Source: an uncultured Arenicella sp. (lineage in GTDB: Bacteria; Pseudomonadota; Gammaproteobacteria; Arenicellales; Arenicellaceae). From it: a stretch of 64,000 bases of DNA. The notes beneath the pieces were generated by a model, which ran no database searches, had not been told where the DNA came from, and worked only from the letters and a program-made list of their open reading frames with translations. The DNA lies in contig CALAKU010000022.1 in NCBI GenBank assembly GCA_937922925.1, forward strand, positions 42,041-106,040. The letters are read 5' to 3'. Numbering within the stretch: position 1 is the first letter of the stretch; each line of letters opens with the position of its first letter. The position numbers and the translations under genes were made by a program. This document shows positions 47,823 through 50,095 of the stretch, one piece after another.

Positions 47823-49955
47823 TTATCGTGCGTCGTGAATCAATCGCAGCAGGTTGGCGGTTGCGCGCGCGTCGTTAAGAGCGCGATGATGGCCATTGAG
47901 GTCGATATCAAAATGCTCGCTCAGTGCTCCGAGGCTATACGACTTTAACCCCGGAAAAGCCTTGCGCGCCATTCTCACAGTACAGCACTTGGGGCGCTTA
48001 AAACGTCGGCCAATATTCTCGTAAGCGGCTTGAATGAATCCATAGTCAAAGCCCACATTGTGCGCAACAAAGATACTGCCATTAAGCTCTTTATCTAAGT
48101 CATCGGCGACTTCCGCAAAGCTAGGTGCGTCGGCCACCATCGAGTTATCAATGCCGGTTAATTGTGTGATGTGTCGTGGAATAGGGCGGCCTGGGTTAAG
48201 CAACGTACTCCATTCGCGTATCACTTCTTGGTTGCGTAATGTTACCACCGCGATTTCAGTAATGGCATTGCCGCCGCGGCGCCCGCCGGTAGTTTCGATA
48301 TCGACGACGCTATAACTTTGCTCTGGGTTTACGGCCCATTCGAGCTGAGTGATTTGAGCCGAGATATCGGCGTTACGTAGCCTTTGCAAGGCCACTAACT
48401 GGTTTGGCCTTAATTGATCTCCCGGCGCCTTCACTTCTTCAAAACGAAACTCGTTTTGTTCGATCACCAGCAAATCAGGGTAGCCGTCTTTAGCGTAACG
48501 ATATTGTTTGGCCATCTCGCGAACCACTGAAGCCAGTTGCGGCGCATTCGTGCATTGCAGTGCTTGATTTATGGCGTCTAGCATTCCCGCCCGCCAGCGA
48601 AAGACCCCATTGCTCTGCCCATAGAATTGAGCGGCGCGTCGAGCGAGTTGCTTGTTTAGATGTCTTGGATCTGAAAAAGCAGCAAGCTCTCTTTCGATTT
48701 CGTCTCGATGCTTAGAGTAAAAATCGCCGTCACGCAGCCGTATGGGCAAACGATCAAATTCACTGTGTTGTGAGCGCGAGTCGCCCCACAAAATTGGCCA
48801 CAGGCTTAAACCGAACAACACGCGCCAAAACTGGTTTTCCGTGAAAAATGCCTCCAAGCCAAATTGCCGATAATGTTCGAGCAAGCCTTGCTCTGCATTA
48901 TTGATAAAAACCTCGTCTAAGCTAACGACTCGATCATTTTGACGCATTATGTCGGTGTAAACCGAGGTACGCTTTCCTATGAATTTTCGTTGATAAAAGT
49001 CGGCAACAAATATTTGTGCAGTTGGTTCCAATGTTTGGTTTTGCAGGTGTTCCAATTCCTGCTGTAGATCCGCTTTATGGCCATATTTGTATTGCTGGCG
49101 TATTCGAAGTTCCAGAGCTTTAGGGTGCCCGCTTTGCCGCCAAAGATTGATCGCGGTTTGAGAATCAACCTTTGCATTTTCGCCGAGTGCCAATTGCTTT
49201 TCGCCGAGCTTTAGCAAGGCTTGATCGCGACATTCTAAGGCAGCTACGCCCACAGCTTGGTGTGCCAGAGTTGTTTGGATCAGCCCAGGTAAATGGTGAA
49301 TATCTGTTTGTTTAAGCTCACGCAACACGCAATGCAATTCAAAGCAAGATTGCGCTTGCTCGTACGATTCAAAACGGGGTTTAACTAGGCTTGATTGCTG
49401 AGTCTTTAAGACGCCGAGATCGCGCATCACAAATTTTTGGAATTGATTATTCAAATTACCAAAAAACAAAAAGAACAAATAATCGACTACTCGCTTCTGA
49501 CGCCGCGCGACGAATGTGTGGGCAAGCGCTTGGCCGTGCTCAAATTTTACATGGGTCTTTGCTAGGGCCAGTAACTCGCCCTTATTCATGGTGCTTAAAC
49601 TGCCAATGCCTCGCTGTATAAGTAATTCACTTAATTGAGCTTTGCTTAAGGTTTCTATCAAATTTGGCCAGTCTCGTGGCAACGGTCGGCTCAATAGCTT
49701 TATATCAATGCACGCCTGTAAGGCTTCTTGTGGGGCCTTGATTTCCTCGTAATTGAGGCTGCTCTGTTGTAGTAATAACGGCTTGCGCGCCAAACATCGA
49801 ACTAATAAACACTGAGCATTTTCAGCTAAGGAATCAAAGGCGTCTAAGTAGCTTGCGGTGGCCACGTCAATTAAGTGAGCATTATGATTACGAACATGCG
49901 CGAAAAGTTCTTTGGCATGGTGGAGATAATATTTTTTTGGGAGTTCGGCAAGCAT
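47823..49955 (-). CDS. FAN1-like VRR-NUC nuclease fused to a DEDDh (DnaQ-like) 3'-5' exonuclease
   Basis: The N-terminal about 545 residues look like bacterial FAN1. There is a SAP-like segment (about 101-135, LSKAQLSELLIQRGI), a helical middle region, the FTENQFWRVLFGLSLWPILW segment with the conserved catalytic Glu373, and the VRR-NUC core with PD at 493-494 and E-V-K at 507-509. The last about 160 residues are a complete DEDDh exonuclease: D552 and E554 in DIETTG, D637 in HNVGFDYGF, H690 and D695 in HHRALNDA. FAN1 cuts flap and cross-linked DNA; the added domain would trim 3' ends. The fused size is 710 residues against about 560 for Pseudomonas FAN1. Confidence 0.88.
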   Translation of the reverse strand: MLAELPKKYYLHHAKELFAHVRNHNAHLIDVATASYLDAFDSLAENAQCLLVRCLARKPLLLQQSSLNYEEIKAPQEALQACIDIKLLSRPLPRDWPNLIETLSKAQLSELLIQRGIGSLSTMNKGELLALAKTHVKFEHGQALAHTFVARRQKRVVDYLFFLFFGNLNNQFQKFVMRDLGVLKTQQSSLVKPRFESYEQAQSCFELHCVLRELKQTDIHHLPGLIQTTLAHQAVGVAALECRDQALLKLGEKQLALGENAKVDSQTAINLWRQSGHPKALELRIRQQYKYGHKADLQQELEHLQNQTLEPTAQIFVADFYQRKFIGKRTSVYTDIMRQNDRVVSLDEVFINNAEQGLLEHYRQFGLEAFFTENQFWRVLFGLSLWPILWGDSRSQHSEFDRLPIRLRDGDFYSKHRDEIERELAAFSDPRHLNKQLARRAAQFYGQSNGVFRWRAGMLDAINQALQCTNAPQLASVVREMAKQYRYAKDGYPDLLVIEQNEFRFEEVKAPGDQLRPNQLVALQRLRNADISAQITQLEWAVNPEQSYSVVDIETTGGRRGGNAITEIAVVTLRNQEVIREWSTLLNPGRPIPRHITQLTGIDNSMVADAPSFAEVADDLDKELNGSIFVAHNVGFDYGFIQAAYENIGRRFKRPKCCTVRMARKAFPGLKSYSLGALSEHFDIDLNGHHRALNDARATANLLRLIHDAR

Positions 49956-50095
49956 TGCTAAATACTATAAATATATACAGTTGTTGGCAAGCGCAGACGA
50001 GACTGTTCGGCGAGCGCCTGATGCCGATGCTACAATCTTGATTTCTTACTGCCGACATCTGCCATCTGCCGATTCCCTCTAGTTCAATAAAAACA

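Follow-up and report, generated by a model that had tools for sequence, protein, structure and literature searches.

A FAN1-like nuclease fused to a DEDDh exonuclease beneath a conserved LexA box in Arenicella and other bacteria

What might a single bacterial protein do with two complete nucleases, one of the FAN1 type and one of the DEDDh type? DEDDh domains are 3'-5' exonucleases, and in the animal cross-link pathway FAN1, XPF and SNM1A act as separate proteins. FAN1 enzymes cleave 5' flaps and possess 5'-3' exonuclease activity (PMC4103454), and the cellular role of bacterial FAN1 has apparently been little explored. The window, namely the whole 64 kb stretch of DNA analyzed here, encodes such a protein. 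An open reading frame of 710 residues lies on the minus strand exactly where an earlier note had placed it; its domains, together with the putative regulatory elements, are collected in Table 1.

Table 1 Features of the fan1-deddh locus (positions in the window, residues of the encoded protein)
Feature	Position	Strand	Details and evidence
fan1-deddh gene	47823..49955	-	710 aa; ATG start; stop 47823-47825; full-length orthologues
FAN1_HTH N-terminal domain, residues 9-86	49698..49931	-	Pfam PF21315, E 2.6e-15
SAP-like subdomain region, residues ~91-145	49521..49685	-	PaFAN1 alignment and AF2-model helices (placement inferred)
Wedge/TPR-like helical region, residues ~146-340	48936..49520	-	AF2-model helices; Foldseek match to PaFAN1
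VRR-NUC core, residues 437-535, D494/E507/K509	48351..48647	-	Pfam VRR_NUC, E 1.1e-14
Inter-domain joint, residues 541-547	48315..48335	-	AF2 model; alignment of 29 fusions
DEDDh 3'-5' exonuclease domain, residues 550-703	47847..48308	-	Pfam PF00929 (RNase_T), E 6.4e-35
LexA (SOS) box	49963..49982	.	CTGTATATATTTATAG on - strand; core 49965-49980; 1 mismatch to CTGT-N8-ACAG
Sigma-70-like promoter, TTGCCA-N17-TAGTAT, overlapping the LexA box	49962..49990	-	Consensus match only; such matches occur at near chance number

All three Pfam domains of the window protein exceed their curated cut-offs, FAN1_HTH scoring 56.5 bits against a threshold of 27. Pfam SAP found no match in the protein, although the corresponding region aligns with the SAP region of PaFAN1, and this is the least conserved part of the fused protein. 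A phmmer comparison with the PDB aligned residues 8-543 with PaFAN1 (4r89) over its entire length and residues 547-705 with the S. aureus DinG exonuclease (8zef); the latter segment also matches PolC and DnaQ-type exonucleases of solved structure. The catalytic residues of PaFAN1 are E386, D507, E522 and K524 (PMC4348246), and in the alignment they correspond to E373, D494, E507 and K509, of which E373 sits just upstream of the Pfam-defined core. The DEDDh set spans the Exo I-III motifs (D552/E554/D637/H690/D695), and all nine catalytic residues of the two nucleases are invariant across 29 fusions. The domains of both nucleases and their catalytic residues are thus established by Pfam, by alignment with PDB entries and by the 29-fusion alignment, in agreement with the claim of the earlier note that one protein carries both complete catalytic sets.

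The gene is preceded by a LexA box just before the ATG, which reads TACTATAAATATATACAGTT on the plus strand. Scored with a matrix built solely from non-Arenicella orthologues, it outscores every other site in the 64 kb (19.1 bits, the next reaching 8.0), and only 1 of 3000 simulated sequences of equal composition attains its score. Within 150 bp upstream, CTGT-N8-ACAG with at most one mismatch occurs before 27 of 29 gammaproteobacterial fusions (15 exact) versus 13 of 213 control upstream regions (2 exact); the rows are related rather than independent and the controls are simple ORF calls, and the contrast is nevertheless large. The alphaproteobacterial LexA motif is GTTC-N7-GTTC (PMC3323433), and an exact GAAC-N7-GAAC or GTTC-N7-GTTC precedes all 9 alphaproteobacterial fusions compared with 2 of 70 controls. 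Fusion genes of both classes therefore carry the LexA motif appropriate to their class, despite the difference between the motifs. Conserved LexA boxes at fusion genes are hence established, and from them we infer damage-dependent induction. In Arenicella, the boxes at recA are mostly exact, and those at lexA have 0-1 mismatch in most genomes. Searches for LexA and RecA gave no match in the window's own MAG (estimated completeness 87.6%), whereas both proteins are present in 6/6 relatives checked, each at least 98% complete; their absence most likely reflects missing sequence. A stretch of ~7 nt separates the -10-like hexamer of the candidate promoter from the ATG, and a Shine-Dalgarno sequence is not visible (49953-49990); the fusion mRNA may be leaderless or start from another promoter.

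Exact LexA boxes also precede 6 of 32 unfused FAN1 genes, indicating that SOS control is no peculiarity of the fused genes; it probably predates the fusion or arose independently of it, as judged from these upstream sequences. In the sampled genomes, neither Cho nor Cho+Exo genes showed a convincing LexA box upstream; their start codons are approximate.

An AlphaFold2 model computed from a 29-row alignment (pLDDT 91.1, pTM 0.81) displays the overall FAN1 fold, including the helical solenoid and the VRR-NUC insertion, and its top Foldseek matches are PaFAN1-5' flap complexes (target TM 0.77-0.80). The DEDDh part superimposes on the S. aureus DinG exonuclease with an rmsd of 1.6 Å. In the model, a VRR-NUC strand (533-541) is followed by a five-residue turn and then by a DEDDh strand (547-555); the joint between the nucleases measures 6-7 residues and lacks indels in all 29 proteins. 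Mean pairwise identity reaches 63% in the DEDDh domain, the most conserved region of the alignment, versus 39% in the FAN1 part. This conservation, together with the indel-free joint, argues for rigid functional coupling of the exonuclease to VRR-NUC rather than for a decaying add-on.

The two parts were also placed in separate trees. Among 69 rows of the FAN1-part tree, the 36 fused proteins form one side of a single branch (support 100/100), recovered in 200/200 bootstrap trees. Repeated independent fusions are accordingly unsupported, and the pattern fits a single fusion event whose product would since have been inherited and, in some cases, passed from one class to another. A single clade of fusions is not rejected by the DEDDh-only tree (p-AU 0.425), which by itself does not resolve the point. 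In this tree, the DEDDh part is separated from DnaQ epsilon and groups with the exonucleases of Cho+Exo (GIY-YIG) and DinG. Its nearest relatives are Bacteroidota Cho+Exo proteins; the deepest branches have moderate support (90-95/67-79). Derivation from the cell's own DnaQ epsilon is disfavored by the same tree. Complementary gain and loss of the FAN1 fusion and Cho+Exo within Arenicella was considered and set aside, Cho+Exo being present in one genome only: G011, where the FAN1 fusion is missing and a protein of DEDDh-GIY-YIG (Cho+Exo) architecture is encoded (L016). By contrast, the Cho-like GIY-YIG protein of the window's genome carries no exonuclease (G000:C3:67654-68469).

For Cho+Exo, incision followed by exonucleolytic removal has been proposed (PMC1564403). 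By analogy with this incision-plus-exonuclease logic, the DEDDh domain of the fusion would most probably trim from the 3' end made by VRR-NUC, thereby widening the gap, and the explanation we hold to be somewhat the better bet is an SOS-inducible, structure-specific FAN1 subfamily that would cut branched or cross-linked DNA and trim from the new 3' end. LexA would repress the gene, and DNA damage would induce it, as the conserved box suggests. The FAN1 part, judging from PaFAN1 and human FAN1, would recognize a 5' flap, fork or cross-link and incise the strand a few nucleotides inside the duplex. The DEDDh domain would then digest 3'-5', starting either from the 3' end that incision creates or from the one located at the junction, so that the unhooked or damaged oligonucleotide is shortened and a gap is left for a polymerase. 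We infer the activity, substrate, order of steps and repair role from these likenesses, and a role in cross-link repair is plausible. Given the 5'-3' exonuclease activity of FAN1s (PMC4103454) and the 3'-5' polarity of DEDDh domains, it is sound to expect both exonuclease polarities in one enzyme. A stronger version, in which FAN1 unhooks interstrand cross-links under SOS control, DEDDh trims the 3' end of the remnant and the geometry of the active sites is fixed, is put forward tentatively, with the chances leaning against it. If true, one protein would perform the cross-link excision that animals divide among FAN1, XPF and SNM1A. Several points count against the preferred explanation: DEDDh domains may also act on RNA, the window's LexA box carries a mismatch and sits directly ahead of the ATG, the window's MAG yielded neither LexA nor RecA, conserved operon partners are missing beyond the genus, and unfused FAN1 genes can have LexA boxes as well.

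The main rival to trimming of the excised strand is that the exonuclease works chiefly on the 3' end of the upstream primer at a flap junction, preparing the substrate: by resection, or by clearing a 3' end that is mismatched or blocked, it would create the gap or flap required by FAN1. We regard this as unlikely. The rigid placement of the exonuclease beside VRR-NUC, seen in the AF2 model and the 29-protein alignment, speaks for it, as does a fold held in common with proofreading and DinG exonucleases; against it, the exonuclease is closest to Cho+Exo repair nucleases and not to DnaQ epsilon, and the present data do not separate the two orders of action. It is considerably less probable that the DEDDh domain serves chiefly as a tether or as a clamp on DNA ends, with catalysis of little import. 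Pseudomonas and other unfused FAN1s do manage without it, but none of its five catalytic residues varies among the 29 proteins, and it is the slowest-evolving part of the fusion.

The neighborhood of the gene was dropped as a functional clue, as neighbors are conserved only within genera or close relatives, with no conserved operon partner outside the genus. Around Bradyrhizobium fusions, an SRAP gene (YedK/HMCES-type, SOS response associated peptidase) adjoins one copy, 75 bp upstream on plasmid p172_1 (L180:7167-7913), and SRAP homologues lie near two others (L162, L163). In Alteromonas-like genomes, a small DUF2805 gene directly follows the fusion, and an HNH-type gene often directly precedes it (L070, L079, L081, L082, L168, L169, L171, L172). 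An SOS-induced defense or mobile-element nuclease that destroys foreign branched DNA appears highly improbable: some fusion copies do reside on conjugative plasmids and DEDDh-containing PADLOC models match the exonuclease part, but those matches are limited to the generic DEDDh part, no recurrent defense genes were seen beside the fusion, and the fusion is widely kept within Arenicella. Assignment to a defense system was dropped on account of the generic PADLOC matches.

Returning to the repair nuclease favored above, we surveyed its distribution. The fusion is present in 14 of 18 Arenicella genomes, one copy being cut by a contig end, and the Arenicella orthologues, the window's own excepted, are 43-52% identical. 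A scan of GTDB genomes identified full-length fusions in Alteromonas, Aliiglaciecola, Aestuariibacter, Pseudoalteromonas, Marinifaba, Asticcacaulis and one Hyphomonadaceae MAG, and plasmid records added those of Bradyrhizobium, whose product is annotated merely as 'exonuclease domain-containing protein'. Fusions of VRR-NUC with DEDDh thus span two proteobacterial classes and are carried by many bacteria that live in the sea or as soil symbionts. When 399 genomes of the phylum were sampled by the FAN1 part only, ~55 had a clear FAN1; ~10 of these encode a long fused protein (at least 713 aa), and nearly all others measure 539-643 aa. Apart from the window's genome, the long proteins come from one gammaproteobacterial (f151) and two alphaproteobacterial families, and a class-wide sample agrees. 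That a sequence or assembly error merged two genes, a concern raised in the earlier note and by the fragmentation of the window's MAG (104 contigs), has virtually no chance of being right, since dozens of genomes assembled independently of one another, among them chromosomes in a single contig and plasmids recorded as circular, carry the same single-frame fusion at 34-52% identity.

Two further observations concern individual copies. An Alteromonadaceae-type fusion is split after ~residue 105 by an IS3-like element (rve integrase-core transposase; L172:4262-5496, G406 contig C4), constituting a natural knock-out. One alphaproteobacterial chromosome carries two full-length copies (G452:C1:1298673-1300295 and 5689465-5691087), with an alpha-type LexA box at each.

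FAN1, DEDDh and their biochemistry are already known, and DEDDh combined with an incision nuclease is already known for Cho. As to whether the fusion itself was already well characterized, which the earlier note had allowed for, no description of a FAN1/VRR-NUC and DEDDh fusion was found in the literature searched, subscription papers lying outside its reach; FAN1 plus DEDDh as a defined, SOS-boxed subfamily appears to be undescribed. A fused, monophyletic, SOS-boxed subfamily in culturable Pseudoalteromonas, Alteromonas and Bradyrhizobium offers a direct test of bacterial FAN1 as a damage-induced repair nuclease.

Among known systems, the stand-alone VRR-NUC resolvases psNUC and stNUC and the T6SS effectors TseV have the VRR-NUC fold in common with the window protein but lack the FAN1 N-terminal and TPR-like regions and the exonuclease (PMC4103454, PMC9635880). 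PaFAN1 (PDB 4R89, 4R8A, 5Y7G) and human FAN1 share the NTD/HTH, helical solenoid and VRR-NUC. PaFAN1, 22-23% identical in structural alignment, ends after VRR-NUC at ~559 aa, bearing out the claim that Pseudomonas FAN1 has no exonuclease part, whereas the window protein adds ~165 residues of DEDDh exonuclease. In Bacillota DinG-type DEDDh-helicases (PDB 8ZEF), the DEDDh domain is 35% identical to the window's, and its partner is an XPD-like helicase, unlike the FAN1 of the fusion. Cho+Exo and Cho-like+Exo proteins (DEDDh plus GIY-YIG; NCBIfam PRK07883) share the logic of an incision nuclease joined to an exonuclease (PMC1564403), and the DEDDh domain is ~46-57% identical to that of Bacteroidota and similar members. 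Their incision module is GIY-YIG, whereas that of the fusion is VRR-NUC; the exonuclease is N-terminal in Cho+Exo and C-terminal in the fusion. Pfam GIY-YIG (PF01541) has no match in the window protein, and only the DEDDh part is related to Cho+Exo. A single DEDDh lineage is thus combined with several partners that incise or unwind DNA: GIY-YIG/Cho, DinG and FAN1.
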